Shown: positions 8,815 through 19,525 of the stretch, one piece after another
How the letters are laid out: every line of letters begins with the position of its first letter
How positions within the stretch are numbered: position 1 is the first letter of the stretch
Assembly: GCA_947589075.1 (NCBI GenBank)
Contig: CANQBS010000010.1
Span: 1 to 51,911, forward strand
Origin: an uncultured Acetatifactor sp.
GTDB taxonomy: Bacteria > Bacillota > Clostridia > Lachnospirales > Lachnospiraceae
DNA length: 51,911 nt
Reading direction: 5' to 3'
Position numbers and translations under genes: made by a program
Notes under the pieces: model-generated
Told to the model about the DNA's origin: nothing
Seen by the model: the letters and a program-made list of their open reading frames with translations, nothing else
The model's database searches: none

Positions 8815-8920
8815 TACCTTTTTTAGAAATGCTTTGTATATTTATCAGTACAATGTAAGATGTCAGATACGCCCCTGGAAGGGTTATGGGCAGAGCCCCT
8901 ATGGGAAGAACTCCGGCTCC

Positions 8921-9721
8921 CTAAATATAAAAGCCCCTGCCTCCGCAGCACATGCCGCCTCCGCAGCAAAGCTGGCAGATCAGGTTGGCAATAAGGATCC
9001 TCACGCACAGATTGCCGCTTCCGAAGGTGGGATATCCATAAGCTGCCTGCCTCTGCTCATACCAGGTGCCTCCGCTTTCAAAGGACTTCACGAGGTTCTG
9101 GTAGTCCTGGTTGCCCGGTTCAAGGGACACCGCCTTCCTCGCATGTTCCAGGGCGGCCACATTGTTTCCCATGCCGGAATGGGCGATGGCGCTGTAATAA
9201 TACCATCTGGCGTTCCGCTCCTGCACCCCCATGCCGTCCAGAGCGTTGCGGGCCTCCTTAAAATAACGATTACGGATATAATTGCCCGCCGCCCGCAGAT
9301 GAGGATCTTCTTCATAGCCCGTACTGCCGCCAAAGCCCCCGGTTCCTCCAAAGCCTCCGAAGCCGCCGAAACCGCCGAAGGGGCCGTAACCAAAGCCTCC
9401 GAAACCTCCGTAGCCCTGTCCGCTTCCGCTGCCGGCTCCCCCGTAACCGTTCCCGCCGCCATAGCCTCCGTAGCCGCCGGAATTCCCGTAACCGCCGGAG
9501 CTTCCGTAGCCTCCTGCGCTTCCGTAGCCCTGGGTGCGCTCCTTCATGATCTGCTGGTACGCCGCCTGGATCTCCTTGAATTTCTCCTCGGCCTGATCCT
9601 TATTGGGATTATTGATGTTGGCATCGGGATGATACCGCCTGCTCAACGCTCTGTATGCTTTTTTGATCTCTTCCTCGGTGGCGTCTCTGCTTACCCCCAG
9701 GACTCTGTACGGATCTATCAT
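8921..9721 (-). CDS. J-domain protein with Gly/Tyr-rich linker and cysteine-rich hydrophobic tail
   Basis: 266 residues. Residues 1-65 are a J domain ([23 protein letters not shown] in RRYHPDAN), the part that stimulates ATP hydrolysis by DnaK-type Hsp70. Residues about 66-135 are low-complexity YGSSGGYG and GGFGGFGG repeats. A helical TPR-like part follows ([17 protein letters not shown] onward). The C-terminus is odd: a hydrophobic segment leads into [11 protein letters not shown], five cysteines within eleven residues, then a short polar end. It lacks the DnaJ zinc finger and client domains, so it is not DnaJ itself. It is the last gene of a three-gene operon after the DUF5685 and zinc-ribbon genes. 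Confidence 0.85.
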
Positions 9722-9728
9722 CTCTCTG

Positions 9729-9782
9729 TCCTTTTCCTGCCTTCTGCCCTTTTCCTGCCTTCTATCCTTTTCCCGCCTTCGC
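9729..9782 (-). repeat. Three 18-bp tandem repeats overlapping the J-protein leader
   Basis: Three consecutive 18-base units (9729-9746, 9747-9764, 9765-9782), plus-strand form TCCTTTTCCTGCCTTCTG, differing at a few positions, fill the gap between the DUF5685 gene and the J-protein gene. On the sense strand each unit gives GAAGGCAGGAAAAGG, so three Shine-Dalgarno-like blocks precede the start codon. Confidence 0.85.
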
Positions 9783-9784
9783 CC

Positions 9785-10642
9785 TTAAGAACTTTTTGCG
9801 CTGGTTTTCTCCTGTTCCTTCTTCCGCCGCTTTTCGTGCACGATCTCGTAGCGGCACCAGACCCCGGAATACAGGATATTCCGCAGGATCTCCACATTTT
9901 CCAGGATGGGGAGCTGTTCGAATTCCCTGCAGCACTCTGACATCATCATCATGAGGATCGTCTTACACTCTTCTTCGAAATCCGGGTTGTGATATTTCTT
10001 TTTCAGTGGATTGTAGGTTCCTTTTTTGATATCCTCCTCCACATCCTCATAAGCGTCCATCAGATAAATGAACTTCCCCAGGAAAAAGCCGAACCGGGAC
10101 AGGTTCTGGGACCATTCATCCTCCTTATACACCACGATCTGAGACATCACCCTGCCAAACAGCCCGGCCATGGTGTCGATATCCGCCTTTCCGGATTTCT
10201 CCCTGTCCGCCATATCGTGCAGAAGCAGGCTGATGGTGCGGAACTTCTCCAGATACTGCTCCTTCGCCTTTCCGACCTTTCCTTCCAGTATTTTTCCATA
10301 GAGAAGCTTATGAAGCTTCTTTTCGTCCATCCAGTCGTCCTCACACTTATAATAGGTAAACAGCACGTTCATATCCGCCATGTATTCCGTGAAGACATTG
10401 GTCCTGGTCTTATGTTTTTCAAAGGGATGGGCGATGCACTTACACTCCCCTGTTTCCGTCTCCGGATCGTAAAGTCCCGTCAGCAGCATGAGAAGGAAGG
10501 TCATATCATAACTTAAGGAAAGCTGTCCCGCCCGGCCGTACTTTTTCTTAAGGACCTGGCAGAGCCCGCAGTAATAAGAATGATAGACGTCAAATTCCTT
10601 GAATTTCATCTCCGACTGATTGACAATGATATATCCAAACAT
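9785..10642 (-). CDS. DUF5685 family protein
   Basis: 285 residues, helical, no signal peptide. The N-terminus (MFGYIIVNQSEMKFKEFDVY, then HSYYCGLC at 21-28) fits DUF5685 as I remember it. Two acidic motifs stand out: CEDDWMDE at residues 100-107 and YLMDAYEDVEEDIKKGTYNP at residues 193-212. Their spacing and helical setting recall the two Asp-rich motifs of squalene/phytoene-synthase-fold enzymes, but this is inference and a non-enzymatic role is equally possible. Cysteines C25, C28, C68 and C70 could bind metal. It is the middle gene of an operon, 4 bases after the zinc-ribbon gene. Function unknown. Confidence 0.75.
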   Translation of the reverse strand: MFGYIIVNQSEMKFKEFDVYHSYYCGLCQVLKKKYGRAGQLSLSYDMTFLLMLLTGLYDPETETGECKCIAHPFEKHKTRTNVFTEYMADMNVLFTYYKCEDDWMDEKKLHKLLYGKILEGKVGKAKEQYLEKFRTISLLLHDMADREKSGKADIDTMAGLFGRVMSQIVVYKEDEWSQNLSRFGFFLGKFIYLMDAYEDVEEDIKKGTYNPLKKKYHNPDFEEECKTILMMMMSECCREFEQLPILENVEILRNILYSGVWCRYEIVHEKRRKKEQEKTSAKSS

Positions 10643-10646
10643 GAAG

Positions 10647-11039
10647 TCAGCTCCTTCTTATGAAGCAGGTGCTGCATTTCGGACAGCGCACCTCTATCTT
10701 GCCGTGACCTCTCGGGATCCTGATCTTTTGCTTACAGTTCGGACATTTATAGATATGGTAATCCTTCCTCTGGGCCAGTTCCCTTTTCTGACTGGAAAAA
10801 AATCCCCTCACCCTTCCTTCCATTTTCAGATACCGCTGATTTTCCGCGCTCCTGGCGTAGATCTTCCTGGAAAACATCCTGAAATAGGAATATGCGATGG
10901 CCGCGAGGGCAAACAGATAGAAAATATTGGGGCCAAAGAAGGAGATCACCAGGCAGACCAGGGCCAGGATCATCAAAAACTGGTTGAACCTGTCGTTACC
11001 ATAACGTCCCTGCATAAAACGATAAAACTTCTCTCTCAT
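10647..11039 (-). CDS. Membrane protein with C-terminal zinc ribbon
   Basis: 130 residues. Two hydrophobic segments at about residues 20-37 and 39-52 form a membrane hairpin. The C-terminal third has CPNC and CPKC pairs separated by 19 residues (KCPNCKQKIRIPRG, RCPKCSTCF), a rubredoxin-knuckle zinc ribbon like those in cytoplasmic sensor or adaptor parts of membrane proteins. It is the first gene of the operon with the DUF5685 and J-domain genes (4-base gap to the next). A large folded repeat lies just upstream of its start, and no clear promoter was found between them. Confidence 0.7.
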   Translation of the reverse strand: MREKFYRFMQGRYGNDRFNQFLMILALVCLVISFFGPNIFYLFALAAIAYSYFRMFSRKIYARSAENQRYLKMEGRVRGFFSSQKRELAQRKDYHIYKCPNCKQKIRIPRGHGKIEVRCPKCSTCFIRRS

Positions 11040-11311: not shown

Positions 11312-12943
11312 CTAACCCTCCCCATGGGCCGGAATGATCTGGTCGTACAGGTCCAGACCGAAGCTGGTGAGTTCCGGAGAGCCCTGGATCATCTTATAGG
11401 TACGCCTTCCGTCCGCCGTGCGCTCCGCCCGCAGGAATTCCGCTTCGGGCCACTTTTCCTCATAGACCCTTCGGGCAAAGGACAGCAGGTGGGTCACAGT
11501 AAGCACCTTCACTCCCGCTTCCGTCAGAGCCCGGATCATGTCGTAGGCGATGTTCGAGCCCTCCTCTTCCGTAGTGGTGGCAAAGGATTCATTCAGCAAA
11601 ACCAGGGAATCCTTCCCCAGGTGGGCAATGATCCGGTCAAAACGTCCCAGCTCCTCGTCCAGCCGCCCGCTGTTCATGGCGCTGTCCTCCCGTCTGGTAA
11701 AGTGAGGGAAAAAGTGGGGAAAAATGCCGCTCCGGAACCTTTCCGCGCTGACGAACATGCCGCACTGCAGCATGATCTGAGCGATTCCGAGGCTGCGCAG
11801 AAAAGTGGATTTCCCTCCCTGGTTGGCGCCGGTGATGACCAAAAGCATCTTGCCCTCGATGTTCCCGTCGTTTCCTACAGGAACGCGGCTGCGGTAGGTG
11901 GCCATGGAGTATTCCGTCAGATTTTCAAAGCTCAGGCAGTCCGTTTCACAGACCTCCGGGTAGCAAAGGGAAAGCCCCGAAAGGCTGCTGCGCACATAGA
12001 GATTGTAGCAGGCCCTGTAAAAGGCGGTCTCAAAATACAGCTGCTCAAAAAATGCCCTGCACTCCTTCATAAAGGGCTGAAAGCACTTCACCACATACTC
12101 CACCACCTGATTTTCCAGCCTCGTCAGATCCTCCAGCTGGTCGCTGCCCTTTAAGATCACAGTGAGCTCCGAGGCAAAGGTCACCTTCATTTTTTCAGAA
12201 AGGGAAAGCCTTTCCCGGGGTTTGCGGAACTTTTTATTGATGGTTTCCAGGCTCTCTAACTTAAGCGCCCCCAGCTTCAGCCCGCTCTCCACCTGACAGC
12301 CCAGCACCATCCGGACCTGGCGGACCTTATTGGTGCCGCTTCCTTCCAGGGAGTACTCTTCCTCCCCTTCTTCAAAAAAGGCGATGTCCCTAAGGGCTTT
12401 CCGCAGCTTTTCCTCCCATTCGTCCGAGAAGTCCTCTGAAAGCCTGTCCGCGAAGTCCTTAAGCCCCTGGGAAGAAAAGCGGTCCCTGTGGGCGCGGCAC
12501 AAAGCCTTGATCTGCGCCAGGACATTGACGAACAGATGAAGCTGCTTGATGCGCGAAACCAGCTGGATCCCCCGTTCCCTGGCGGCGCCGGGCTTGTCCA
12601 TTTCATTTTTTCCCAGCCTTTCCCAGCGCTCCATCATATCCTTTGAGATTCCGTACAGACCCTTGACAAATTCCTCATCCTGGGTAAGATCCCGAAGGAC
12701 GGCCTGACGGTAATAGATCTCCTCCGGCGACGACAGGGGAGCCAGCATCACCTTTTTCAGCGCCTCTCCCAGATGTCTGTCCGCCTGGAGGGCGGTCCGC
12801 ACCGTTCCCGTCCTTTCCTCCTGATCTCTTTCCGCCACCTGGAACAGCACCTCAAGCCCCAGGTCGTTTACGATACTTTCACAGTCGTAATAAGGGCGGA
12901 TCCCCTTCCATTCCTTATCCGCGTACAACAGGCAGACTTTCAT
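11312..12943 (-). CDS. MutS-family ATPase lacking the mismatch-recognition domain (second of a pair)
   Basis: 543 residues. The C-terminal part is a MutS-type ABC ATPase: Walker A GANQGGKSTFLRSLG near residue 370, the signature-like stretch DSAMNSGRLDEELGR near 415, Walker B DSLVLLNESFATTTEEEGS near 435 and VLTVTHLLSFA near 470. The N-terminal part is helical, like the MutS core/lever region, but the mismatch-binding N-domain of MutS is absent and no C-terminal Smr nuclease (as in MutS2) is seen. It starts within the last 4 bases of the upstream MutS-like gene (ATGA overlap), so the two may form a heterodimer. Role unknown; such ATPases serve in recombination or repair. Confidence 0.85.
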   Translation of the reverse strand: MKVCLLYADKEWKGIRPYYDCESIVNDLGLEVLFQVAERDQEERTGTVRTALQADRHLGEALKKVMLAPLSSPEEIYYRQAVLRDLTQDEEFVKGLYGISKDMMERWERLGKNEMDKPGAARERGIQLVSRIKQLHLFVNVLAQIKALCRAHRDRFSSQGLKDFADRLSEDFSDEWEEKLRKALRDIAFFEEGEEEYSLEGSGTNKVRQVRMVLGCQVESGLKLGALKLESLETINKKFRKPRERLSLSEKMKVTFASELTVILKGSDQLEDLTRLENQVVEYVVKCFQPFMKECRAFFEQLYFETAFYRACYNLYVRSSLSGLSLCYPEVCETDCLSFENLTEYSMATYRSRVPVGNDGNIEGKMLLVITGANQGGKSTFLRSLGIAQIMLQCGMFVSAERFRSGIFPHFFPHFTRREDSAMNSGRLDEELGRFDRIIAHLGKDSLVLLNESFATTTEEEGSNIAYDMIRALTEAGVKVLTVTHLLSFARRVYEEKWPEAEFLRAERTADGRRTYKMIQGSPELTSFGLDLYDQIIPAHGEG

Positions 12944-14466
12944 TCCCAGCCCTCCTTTTCCTTCTCGAGACGCTCTCTAAGCCTGTCATAGGTCAGTCCG
13001 TATTTTTCCACGATATCTTCCGCGTAACCCGATTCCAGGGCCTCGTGGCGCAGGATCCGGTAGGTTCTCCTGTGGGAGCCTCCCTCCTCCAGCATGGCGG
13101 TCATGGTCACCACCCCTTCCACCTCGTCTCCCAGCTCCTTTAAGTGGGTGACATAGATGCCCCTGCACTGGTTGTCCATAAAATGCCGCAGGACCCTGGC
13201 TCCCATAATGCAGCCGTCATAATGGGCCGCCGTGGTGAACAGCTCATTGATGATCACAAAGGCTCCCTTTCCCTCATCCTCCATCATGGGCGCCAGCCTC
13301 TCCAGCTCCTCCATGAGCTTGCCCCGGCCTCCTTCCATGCTTTCCTCTCTGGAAAAATGGGTCAGCAGGGCGCTGAAGTCATGGACATTGGCGTACTCTG
13401 CCGGCACGTCCAGTCCCATCTTGCAAAAATAGACCAGCTGTCCCAGGCTGCGGGCAAAGGTGGTCTTTCCTCCCTGGTTCGGCCCGTTCACCACAAAAAA
13501 AGCTTCCTTTTCATGATAGACAAAATCGTTGCTGACCACAGGCTTGTTCCGCAGAGTGTTCGAGCAGGCCAGAGCCAGGTCGTAGAGCCCAGCCGCCTCC
13601 ATCTCCCGGTCCATGCGTCTGTCGGGAACGCAGAAGGCAAAACCTCTTTCCTGCATCCTTTTTTCAAATCGGTAAAACGCCAGGTAGTACTGGATCTCCT
13701 TTTCAAACTGCCTGACGGTCTCATCCGCATAGGTAGGGAATTTCCGGGCAAACTCCTGGATACTGTCGAACAGCTCCGGGTATTTTTTCCGGTAGATGCC
13801 GAAAAGCTCTTCCTCCAGCACCGACATTCCCAGATCATCCGCAAAAGGTCCTTTGCCGGAGCAGCTTTCTCCAAGGCTTTTTCCGAGAAAAGCCTCGTAG
13901 GAACCTTCCACTGTTCCCGGCGTAAGGGTCACGCAGTTATTCTCGATGACAAGCACCAGGCGGAAAGCCTCCATCCCCGCCCCGATCCGAAAAGACTCCT
14001 CCTTCAGGCTCTGAAAGGGCTCTCCTGCCGTTAAAGTCTCCAGATACTCGAAAAGACCCTGTAATCCCGAAGAACGGATCTGCGTCTGCCGCAGATCCTC
14101 CTGCAGTCCCGTTACCGCCCTGCAGTAGCAGTATACCGCGGCGGCGTACCAGGCGTCCTTCTGCAGAGGGATCTCCACCGTTCCCCAATTCCTCAAAAAC
14201 TCCCCGGAGCGCCGCATCAGCTCTGAGAACCGCTCCAGGCAGGCGAAGACCTCCGGACGCTTTACGTCCGTATAAATCTGCCGTCGGTAATCTTCACAGG
14301 CCCTTGCGGCCGGCAGCCTGTAATAGTATTGTCCCAGCTCATAGCCCGGAGCCTGTCCCTGGATCAGCTTAAGCAGCTGATCCAGGTTCAGATCCCAGAA
14401 ATAGCCGGGCATATATGTGAATTTTTCCTCAGGGGGTTCCAGATCCAGGATACTGAAATAACTCAT
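12940..14466 (-). CDS. MutS-family ATPase lacking the mismatch-recognition domain (first of a pair)
   Basis: 508 residues from the ATG at 14464-14466, chosen because AAGGAG lies about 8 bases upstream; the longer open frame runs back through a tandem repeat with no ribosome site. Walker A GPNQGGKTTFARSLG lies near residue 329, then THFSREESMEGGRGKLMEEL, Walker B GAFVIINELFTTAAHYDG and GIYVTHLKELGDE. The N-terminal half is helical (FSILDLEPPEEKFTYMPGYF) and unlike the MutS mismatch domain. In Walker B an asparagine replaces the usual aspartate (INELF); the partner has LNESF, so both deviate in the same way. It overlaps its partner by 4 bases. Confidence 0.85.
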   Translation of the reverse strand: MSYFSILDLEPPEEKFTYMPGYFWDLNLDQLLKLIQGQAPGYELGQYYYRLPAARACEDYRRQIYTDVKRPEVFACLERFSELMRRSGEFLRNWGTVEIPLQKDAWYAAAVYCYCRAVTGLQEDLRQTQIRSSGLQGLFEYLETLTAGEPFQSLKEESFRIGAGMEAFRLVLVIENNCVTLTPGTVEGSYEAFLGKSLGESCSGKGPFADDLGMSVLEEELFGIYRKKYPELFDSIQEFARKFPTYADETVRQFEKEIQYYLAFYRFEKRMQERGFAFCVPDRRMDREMEAAGLYDLALACSNTLRNKPVVSNDFVYHEKEAFFVVNGPNQGGKTTFARSLGQLVYFCKMGLDVPAEYANVHDFSALLTHFSREESMEGGRGKLMEELERLAPMMEDEGKGAFVIINELFTTAAHYDGCIMGARVLRHFMDNQCRGIYVTHLKELGDEVEGVVTMTAMLEEGGSHRRTYRILRHEALESGYAEDIVEKYGLTYDRLRERLEKEKEGWE

Positions 14467-14481
14467 CTGCTTCTCCTTAGA

Positions 14482-14569
14482 AATCTGCGCCGCAGGGTAC
14501 AGTAATCTGCTCTGCCGGGCGCGGTAATCTGCTCCGCCAGACACAATAATCTGCGCCGCCAGGCACAGT
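14482..14569. repeat. Four 22-bp tandem repeats upstream of the MutS-like pair
   Basis: Four exact-length units at 14482-14503, 14504-14525, 14526-14547 and 14548-14569, plus-strand form close to AATCTGCGCCGCCAGGCACA plus GT. They start just beyond the ribosome binding site of the first MutS-like gene, so they lie in its leader. Units differ from each other at several positions. Confidence 0.9.
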
Positions 14570-18025: not shown

Positions 18026-19525
18026 TCAATCATGATATACGGTTTCCACAAAGGATACCGCTGAAAAGTCAGTAACAGGATTATCACTTAAATACAGTTC
18101 CGTTAGAGACGTAAGATTCCCCAATGCGCTGATGTCGCTGATCTGGTTGGTTCCTAAACTCAGCCACGTCAGCGAGGTCAGGTTCCCCAATGCGCTGATA
18201 TCGCTGATCTGGTTGGTCCCTAAACTCAGCCACGTCAGCGAGGTCAGGTTCCCCAACGCTCCGATGTTGCTGATCTGGTTGCCCCTTAAAACCAGCCACG
18301 TCAGCGAGGTTAGGTTCCCCAATGCGCTGATATCGCCGATCTGGTTGCTCGATAAATCCAGTTCCGTCAGAGACGTCAAATTCCCCAACGCTCTGATGTC
18401 GCTGATCTGGTTGGAGCTTAACCTCAGTTCCGTCAAAGACGTCAGATTCCCCAACGCACTGATATCGCTGATCTGGTTGCTCGATAAATCCAGTTCCGTC
18501 AGAGACGTCAGATTTCCCAGCGCTCTGATGTCGCTGATCTGGTTCCAGCTTAACTTCAGGCTCGTCAGAGACGTCAGATTCCCCAGCGCTCTGATGTCGC
18601 TGATCTGGTTGCTCGATAAATCCAGTTCCGTCAGAGACGTCAGATTCCCCAACGCTCTGATGTCGCTGATCTGGTTGCTATATAAATGCAATTCCGTCAG
18701 AGACGTCAGATTCCCCAGCGCACTGATGTCGCTGATCTGGTTGTTATATAAATGCAGTTCCATCAGAGACGTCAAATTCCTCAATACACTAATGTCGCCA
18801 ATCTGGTTGCCCCCTAAATACAGATAGGTCAAATTGAAAAGTTCACCCAGAGCATTAATGTTTACAATTTCCATATAATTCAAAAATAGTCCCTGCAGCT
18901 CCCACACATCGCTCAGCATGATATCCCTATCCGTGATCCCCGTGATCTCCCTCATGGCGGCTTCCAGGTTCGCATCCTGCCAGTCCATCATATGGTCTTC
19001 CAGTCCGGCTTCCGCCCAGGGTATAAACTTCGGAACGGATGCTGCACTTTCCTGATCCTGGCTCTCATCCTTTTCTTCAGGTACTGGATAACTTTCTTCT
19101 GTTTCTGCAGATTCCTGCCCGGCCGACCCTTCTTCCTGTCCGCCGGACCCAGCCCCCTGTTTCTCCAGATACTCCGCCTCCACTTCATCACGCTTCGCGG
19201 CAATAGCCTCCGACTGCACTTCCACATAACCTTTTTCCAAAATCTGCAAGGCACTTTCATAATCTTCCAGACCTATATACGCATCCGCCGCACCGAGGTA
19301 AGCGTCCGCACACTTCGGCTCTATCTCAATGGCGTCCATATATGCCGCCAGCGCCTTCTCAAAATCCATCTCATTCAGATATCGGTCGCCCAGTTCAAGC
19401 TTTTCTTTCAGTTTCTTCGCCTGGGAGTCCCCTCCGAAAACGATCAGGGAGATAATTAGTATGGCAGCTATAGCTGCAATTCCTGCCGCTATAAACGTGA
19501 TATAATTCTTTTTACCTGATTTCAT
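18026..19525 (-). CDS. Membrane-anchored TPR and leucine-rich-repeat protein (internalin-like)
   Basis: 499 residues. Short basic start, then one membrane segment (about residues 8-30), so a signal-anchor with the rest outside. Residues about 38-110 hold two or three TPR units (LELGDRYLNEMDFEKALAAY). A Glu/Ser/Gln-rich linker follows (about 120-165), then an LRR cap and twelve SDS22-type repeats of 22 residues with the frame NLTSLTELDLSSNQISDI. The last repeat ends NPVTDFSAVSFVETVYHD with no LPXTG signal. LRR proteins of this type bind proteins or glycans outside the cell. GGAGG lies 8 bases before the ATG. Confidence 0.85.
   Translation of the reverse strand: MKSGKKNYITFIAAGIAAIAAILIISLIVFGGDSQAKKLKEKLELGDRYLNEMDFEKALAAYMDAIEIEPKCADAYLGAADAYIGLEDYESALQILEKGYVEVQSEAIAAKRDEVEAEYLEKQGAGSGGQEEGSAGQESAETEESYPVPEEKDESQDQESAASVPKFIPWAEAGLEDHMMDWQDANLEAAMREITGITDRDIMLSDVWELQGLFLNYMEIVNINALGELFNLTYLYLGGNQIGDISVLRNLTSLMELHLYNNQISDISALGNLTSLTELHLYSNQISDIRALGNLTSLTELDLSSNQISDIRALGNLTSLTSLKLSWNQISDIRALGNLTSLTELDLSSNQISDISALGNLTSLTELRLSSNQISDIRALGNLTSLTELDLSSNQIGDISALGNLTSLTWLVLRGNQISNIGALGNLTSLTWLSLGTNQISDISALGNLTSLTWLSLGTNQISDISALGNLTSLTELYLSDNPVTDFSAVSFVETVYHD
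18070..18815 (-). repeat. 66-bp coding repeats of the LRR gene
   Basis: About eleven tandem 66-base units encode the 22-residue LRRs. Neighbouring units are nearly identical at the DNA level; the units at about 18130-18195 and 18196-18261 are almost the same. Such arrays gain and lose copies by slippage or recombination. Confidence 0.9.

Follow-up and report, generated by a model that had tools for sequence, protein, structure and literature searches.

Results

The DUF5685 locus

The window analysed here is a stretch of 51,911 nucleotides from an uncultured Acetatifactor sp. of the Lachnospiraceae (assembly GCA_947589075.1, contig CANQBS010000010.1), and our subject is a gene of the Pfam family DUF5685 together with the gene that follows it. 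The DUF5685 gene (9785..10642, minus strand) encodes a protein of 285 amino acids (aa) with a predicted isoprenoid-synthase fold; its match to PF18937 scores 361.9 bits and covers profile positions 1-271 of 272. Directly downstream, after a gap of 63 bases, lies a gene for a 266-aa J-domain protein (8921..9721, minus strand; DnaJ, 73.8 bits). The last 30 residues of this protein form a Cys-rich C-terminal tail with 6 Cys (8924..9013, minus strand), recognised by sequence, by tail counts and by a J-tail profile. A third gene on the same strand (10647..11039), 4 bases upstream of DUF5685, encodes a 130-aa protein with a hydrophobic N-terminal half and a zinc-ribbon-like C-terminal end, whose zinc-ribbon matches in Pfam stay under the curated cut-offs. 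An antisense open reading frame (ORF) of 368 aa (8834-9940, plus strand) spans the whole J-protein gene and outcompetes it in longest-ORF calling, as happens at several other loci.

DUF5685 is present in 33 of 299 genomes of a sample of the phylum. By their titles, the majority of 80 named DUF5685 loci belong to Lachnospiraceae or other Clostridia, the closest one (82% identity) being from an uncultured Acetatifactor. The family also occurs in Actinomycetota and, among 14 control genomes searched, in Thermotoga maritima. A plasmid search with the window protein returned 2 records, and 62 pattern matches in viral_contigs included no relative. NCBIfam gave zero matches for DUF5685, and PADLOC gave none for DUF5685 or the J-protein and a single weak one (expectation value (E) 0.0039) for the upstream 130-aa gene. 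In the open-access literature, as far as the available excerpts go, DUF5685 is named in one paper, within a domain list of C. difficile proteins; PF18937 is named in none, and no description of a pairing between DUF5685 and a Cys tail was found.

Invariant residues of DUF5685

An earlier note on this DNA had pointed out two acidic motifs in the 285-aa ORF, CEDDWMDE at residues 100-107 and YLMDAYEDVEEDIKKGTYNP at residues 193-212, and had likened them to the active-site motifs of squalene/phytoene synthases (SQS/PSY). Both are where it placed them (10322..10345 and 10007..10066, minus strand). Their conservation was examined in a family alignment of 139 members, consisting of 52 sequences from the window and genome samples, 80 from named genome contigs, 3 from wider stretches and 4 from actinobacteria, of which the first 300 residues only were used. 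The fragment L212, which appears as a gap at the Cys columns, was kept in this alignment and excluded from the 140 loci described below; L024, which duplicates the window locus, was excluded.

Of the 285 columns, twelve show the same residue in 137 or more of the 139 members: G3, C25, C28, C69, D102, D106, E148, G189, D196, D200, D204 and N211. The window protein has 46 acidic residues, of which six (D102, D106, E148, D196, D200 and D204) are kept at this level, and five of these six are the motif aspartates. In the first motif, D102 is found in 139/139 and D106 in 137/139 members; in the second, D196, D200, D204 and N211 are each found in 139/139, and Y193 in 135/139, the remaining 4 having His. 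E148 (10199..10201, minus strand) is likewise invariant (139/139). Among 75 representatives below 62% identity, D102, D196, D200, D204 and N211 are present in 75/75 each and D106 in 73/75, indicating that motif conservation exceeds chance and that the aspartates singled out in the earlier note are indeed invariant across the family. Three cysteines are kept as well: a CxxC pair, C25-C28 (10559..10570, minus strand; 138/139 each, the exception being the fragment), in the first long helix, and C69 (10436..10438, minus strand; 138/139).

The likeness of the second motif to RDxxED of SQS/PSY holds for its Asp residues and fails for the signature Arg, which is absent in all members: column 199 has E in 84, D in 36 and other residues in 19 of the 139. 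A Gly before Tyr and Pro, taken as a further shared feature, did not survive the comparison, as G208 occurs in only 88/139 members and 46/75 representatives and the invariant residue in that region is N211.

Predicted fold and remote homology

An AlphaFold2 (AF2) model of DUF5685, with a predicted local distance difference test (pLDDT) value of 90.1, has a predicted isoprenoid-synthase helical bundle. In fold searches, trans-prenyl diphosphate synthases came first among the solved structures listed (e.g. 4jxy and 2azk). The match spans about 235 residues, with each Asp motif on a long helix. The description of the protein as all-helical is nearly right: the first long helix runs from 14 to 40, and the model contains a single beta hairpin (63-81), which carries the invariant C69. 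The alpha-alpha barrel fold of the beta subunits of farnesyltransferase (FTase) and geranylgeranyltransferase (GGTase) was not among the matches listed, an absence that excludes nothing. With the model, the fold searches and the invariant aspartates in agreement, the suggestion that this family is an isoprenoid-synthase-fold protein gains clear support, and on the predicted structure DUF5685 almost certainly has that fold. Neither of the two outcomes that the earlier note named as refuting it, a different fold or variable aspartates, was observed.

Remote homology was computed by profile-profile comparison with hhalign. With 139 members, P values were 6.9e-5 (probability 63%) against SQS/PSY, 4.3e-3 against polyprenyl synthases and 5.5e-3 against DUF2600. 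With 132 members against eight SQS/PSY proteins, P was 2.3e-4 (probability 44%), and D200 and D204 fell on DxxED of the second SQS/PSY motif. A forced global alignment places YYKCEDDWMDE on FCRRADDIVDE. As decoys we used column-shuffled and reversed-block versions of the 132-row alignment, 60 of each, against the three targets; for every target, 0/60 decoys of each type (0/120 in all) reached the real score. The best decoy scored 25.3 against a real score of 36.7 for SQS/PSY, and 19.8 against 31.1 for polyprenyl synthases. For scale, SQS/PSY and polyprenyl synthases, whose kinship is accepted, give P 3.1e-3 against each other with the same alignments, and an unrelated control, the J-protein against SQS/PSY, gives 0.057. 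The predicted fold, both Asp motifs and homology above decoys, four features expected of a class I isoprenoid synthase, are found in DUF5685.

Membership in a known family of this fold was considered and rejected in each case. The window protein has no match to SQS_PSY (PF00494) at E up to 1 and lacks the RDxxED Arg; it has neither a Pfam match to polyprenyl_synt (PF00348) nor a GKxxRP sequence; and it has no Pfam match to DUF2600 (PF10776). None of the three is among the 15 Pfam families matched by any of 27 DUF5685 members. A phmmer search of the PDB with the window protein gave zero matches at E up to 10. Because a Pfam match is missing, membership in SQS_PSY is unsupported. The resemblance proposed in the earlier note therefore stands in part: the motifs fit, and SQS/PSY is the best of the three profile-profile comparisons, so that 'SQS/PSY-like' describes the motifs only.

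A Cys-tailed partner beside DUF5685

The window J-protein is of the cysteine-string type, by its J domain and by 6 Cys in its last 40 residues. Its model shows the J domain, a disordered linker (67-135), TPR-like helices (TPR, tetratricopeptide repeat) and a short Cys-bearing helix (238-254) of middling confidence, followed by a low-confidence end. Where a central gene could be called (128 loci), the next same-strand gene belongs to one J-protein cluster in 109 cases, and the same pair, DUF5685 and then a J-domain protein, appears in the public annotation of Pusillibacter faecalis. A zinc-ribbon-type protein is in the flank at 77/128 loci, in 64 of those immediately upstream of DUF5685.

We then classified tails at 140 DUF5685 loci with flanks of 1.8 kb; for 17 loci with short flanks, longer stretches of the same places were used instead. 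A Cys-tailed J-protein (4-11 Cys among the final 40 residues) was present at 118 loci and another Cys-tailed neighbour at 10; the tail was fused to DUF5685 at 5, the J-protein was cut by the contig end at 2 (L077 and L102), and 5 had none. A Cys-tailed polypeptide, whose role as acceptor is only putative, is thus adjacent or fused at 133/140 loci. One of the loci classed as 'none', L115, has a Cys-tailed J-protein 1.9 kb off, just beyond the limit. In some genomes the tail persists without a recognised J domain (L021, L022, L048 and L053), for example RSSCDCCCCCDDCCCEFNCCDLICLDTCCECMGGDLISCI, and several tails end in -CC. A laxer count (5 Cys within the final 45 residues, 1.5 kb flanks) gave same-strand ORFs at 126/132 DUF5685 loci and 12/68 control loci, and an opposite-strand ORF at 26/132 DUF5685 loci, with some matches being zinc ribbons or seemingly spurious. 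The stricter classification was used because the laxer count also caught these control and opposite-strand ORFs.

Several controls were run on the pairing. A J-domain search of eight genomes gave matches in seven, at 19 places; at the 16 of these that could be read, the J-proteins beside DUF5685 had 6-11 Cys in their last 40 residues (6/6) and those elsewhere had none (10/10). Chance Cys-rich ORFs were rejected as an explanation, since 8 Cys in the last 32 residues were seen in 0 of 2159 control ORFs, which came from 68 loci of other families. Among 61 relatives, the J-tail profile matched strongly (E at most 2e-21) in 20/23 genomes with DUF5685 and in 0/38 without it, and the other three DUF5685-positive genomes have another Cys-tailed neighbour. 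In the phylum sample, a tail of the CCECMGGD type matched strongly in 12/33 DUF5685 genomes and in 0/266 others; eight of these 12 places had supplied rows of the profile, and therefore only the 0/266 is a real test. Fisher tests ignore shared ancestry and are not taken as proof.

Fusions and exceptions

In five cases the tail sits on the C-terminus of DUF5685 itself: in four actinobacterial records (Nonomuraea, two Nocardia and Tsukamurella), two of which have 18 Cys in the last 60 residues, and in G210, a genome from the same phylum as the window. The four actinobacterial proteins group with L049-L052 in one supported branch (100/97) of a 58-member tree, which has an arbitrary root and several long rows; the other fused protein, L047, lies elsewhere. 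Because of this separation, the fusion of tail and DUF5685 probably arose at least twice.

Other genes lie near DUF5685. Two genes downstream of the fused-tail DUF5685 of G210 lies a divergent polyprenyl synthase (L203, 9117-10061; PF00348, 168 bits) with an unusual second-motif region, IMNDLNNW; G210 has two further polyprenyl-synthase genes. A 510-aa Hsp70-like gene was seen by eye near two DUF5685 genes without a Cys-tail neighbour (L205, 3966-5495; L208, 3613-5142), suggesting that a chaperone link may persist there without a J-protein. A membrane protein of about 175-217 aa recurs near the DUF5685/J pair (L213, 6679-7239; L216, 8948-9478; L207, 1749-2399; and similar ones), with a DUF2232 match of 31.2 bits in L207, weak matches below the cut-off in L213 and L216, and none in L221.

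Elsewhere in the window, a tandem MutS-like pair (11312-14544, minus strand) encodes proteins of 543 and 534 aa with MutS domain V as the sole Pfam match (E at most 0.001), and a 499-aa protein (18026-19525, minus strand) contains TPR-like and many leucine-rich repeats.

Discussion

We read DUF5685 as a new class I (trans) isoprenoid-synthase-fold family whose active site, predicted to bind Mg2+ and diphosphate, appears intact in both motifs (D102xxxD106 and D196xxxD200xxxD204, plus E148 and N211). These active-site residues argue for a Mg2+-dependent enzyme, and DUF5685 is probably an active prenyl-diphosphate enzyme. Its likeliest ligand would be an allylic prenyl diphosphate, for instance farnesyl diphosphate. 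The window genome (96% complete) has one polyprenyl-synthase gene and no SQS_PSY match, so prenyl diphosphates should be at hand; DUF2600 was not found in it. We infer that the prenyl group may be moved onto one or more thiols of the partner's Cys-rich C-terminal tail, usually that of the downstream J-protein and, in fused cases, the tail on the C-terminus of DUF5685 itself; the three invariant cysteines possibly bind a thiol-activating metal. The tail is the best acceptor candidate because it is kept without a recognised J domain and is movable onto DUF5685, and that it is the substrate is a fairly even question, leaning slightly to the negative. Once modified, the tail could tether the Hsp70 co-chaperone to the membrane, much like the palmitoylated string of the eukaryotic cysteine-string protein, and the low-confidence end and short Cys helix of the J-protein model would suit such a tail. 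The predicted fold, motif conservation, remote homology, gene pairing and fusion are results of computation, from which catalysis, substrate, membrane role and the part of the three cysteines are deduced; the full mechanism is no more certain than its weakest step, the tail as substrate.

Known systems offer partial parallels. DUF5685 resembles the polyprenyl diphosphate synthases (4jxy, 2azk) in predicted fold and in having its two Asp motifs on long helices, but its second motif is DxxxDxxxD, not DDxxD, and it differs in its Cys-bearing beta hairpin, three invariant Cys and Cys-tailed partner. The SQS/PSY proteins, which agree in the alignment of both motifs, differ in lacking these Cys residues, and the first motif of DUF5685 lies 54 residues further along than in L165. 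In moenomycin synthesis, the acceptor of the prenyltransferase MoeN5 (5b02) is a phosphoglycolipid, unlike the acceptor proposed here. DUF2600 (YtpB) is a former DUF that was shown to be an isoprenoid synthase. A precedent for a member of the isoprene-synthase superfamily prenylating a polypeptide of its own gene cluster is given by ComQ and PalQ, which, in the parts of the sources available, modify Trp at or near the C-terminus (PMC10853753, PMC5331326); theirs are small precursor peptides, whereas the DUF5685 partner is a J-domain protein with a multi-Cys tail. For that partner, DNAJC5, described in the available part of the source as a DnaJ-family co-chaperone with a cysteine string (PMC4447612), is a parallel, its string being palmitoylated. 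Eukaryotic GGTase2 is stated to recognise CC and CXC ends (PMC10853753, in part), to which the -CC tail ends bear only a resemblance.

A rival to be taken seriously, the more so in view of the actinobacterial tails, is that C25, C28, C69 and the tail cysteines bind Zn or Fe-S as a metal-thiolate pair, the fold serving metal or diphosphate binding, not transfer. We regard this as unlikely overall. It would account for the three invariant cysteines, for actinobacterial tails that we judge metallothionein-like, for the D, E and G that stand invariant between the cysteines of CCECMGGD-type tails and for the zinc-ribbon-like protein that is often the third gene, but it leaves the invariance of both Mg/diphosphate Asp motifs unexplained. 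Moreover, the model gives the window J-tail a short helix of middling to low confidence in place of a compact domain, in a method that omits metals. Rather improbable, too, is a small-molecule isoprenoid synthase (catalysing head-to-head condensation, cyclisation or chain elongation) for which the Cys-tailed J-protein is merely a membrane-bound chaperone. The intact two-motif active site, a second motif closest to that of SQS/PSY and diphosphate synthases as the nearest structures among the matches listed all agree with such an enzyme, as do the four members L049-L052 that have no Cys-tail neighbour; DUF5685 neighbours are annotated in part, and terpene genes may lie nearby. Against it, the tail is kept without a recognised J domain or fused to DUF5685, and is thus more constant than the chaperone.

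Two further readings carry far less weight. DUF5685 might be a dead enzyme that binds a prenyl diphosphate or isoprenoid lipid and so serves J-protein/Hsp70 as sensor or scaffold, in keeping with the frequency of J-domain partners; each metal-binding Asp is shared by 137-139 of the 139 members, which would be unusual for an inactive family and makes this very unlikely. That an unrelated helical bundle with acidic helices mimics isoprenoid synthases by convergence is scarcely credible given the fold and decoy results, even with modest hhalign probabilities and a PDB search by HMMER profiles that yields no isoprenoid synthase.

Several observations weigh against tail prenylation or the homology behind it. 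The HH-suite probability for SQS/PSY is modest (44-63%), and when the seven last sequences were added the SQS/PSY match rose and the polyprenyl-synthase match fell. The DUF2600 match is weak (P 0.0055), its best decoy (27.4) nearly equalling the real score (28.0), and the 28 and 9 PDB matches of the HMMER family profiles at E up to 10 include no isoprenoid synthase. L049-L052 have no Cys-tail protein within the surrounding 9.5-16 kb and form two pairs within the actinobacterial fused-tail branch, not one clade; the tail is therefore not universal. Four DUF5685-negative genomes have weak J-tail-profile matches (E 2e-5 to 9e-4) that stop at profile positions 72-100 of 123, short of most of the Cys end; other weak matches lie in DUF5685-positive genomes, and a 46-aa frame in the DUF5685-negative genome G095 matches CCECMGGD weakly (E 0.001). 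The loci are skewed to Lachnospiraceae and are not independent. As far as the available parts of PMC10853753 and PMC5331326 go, the peptide prenyltransferases of this fold act on Trp, not Cys, and ComQ has a degenerate second motif where DUF5685 has both motifs intact, as in diphosphate synthases. In appearance, the actinobacterial tails and the acidic CCECMGGD motif, which is conserved, suit metal-thiolate sites as well as they suit lipid anchors.

For a Pfam family of unknown function, a fold and active site are predicted together with a likely partner; what is new, and more surprising, is the pairing with a Cys tail. Should the tail turn out to bind metal, the close pairing would still leave a question that is directly testable with two genes. 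Cysteine isoprenylation is general in eukaryotes, and the bacterial case reviewed in the available part of PMC5331326 is that of tryptophan. With considerable reserve, we propose that DUF5685 may be the founding class of bacterial protein S-prenyltransferases, with a fold unrelated to that of FTase/GGTase, acting in trans on multi-Cys J-protein tails or in cis on tails of their own to yield a membrane-anchored, cysteine-string-like Hsp70 system. If DUF5685 does prenylate Cys tails, protein S-prenylation would have arisen separately here, and bacteria would have a counterpart of the cysteine-string chaperones.
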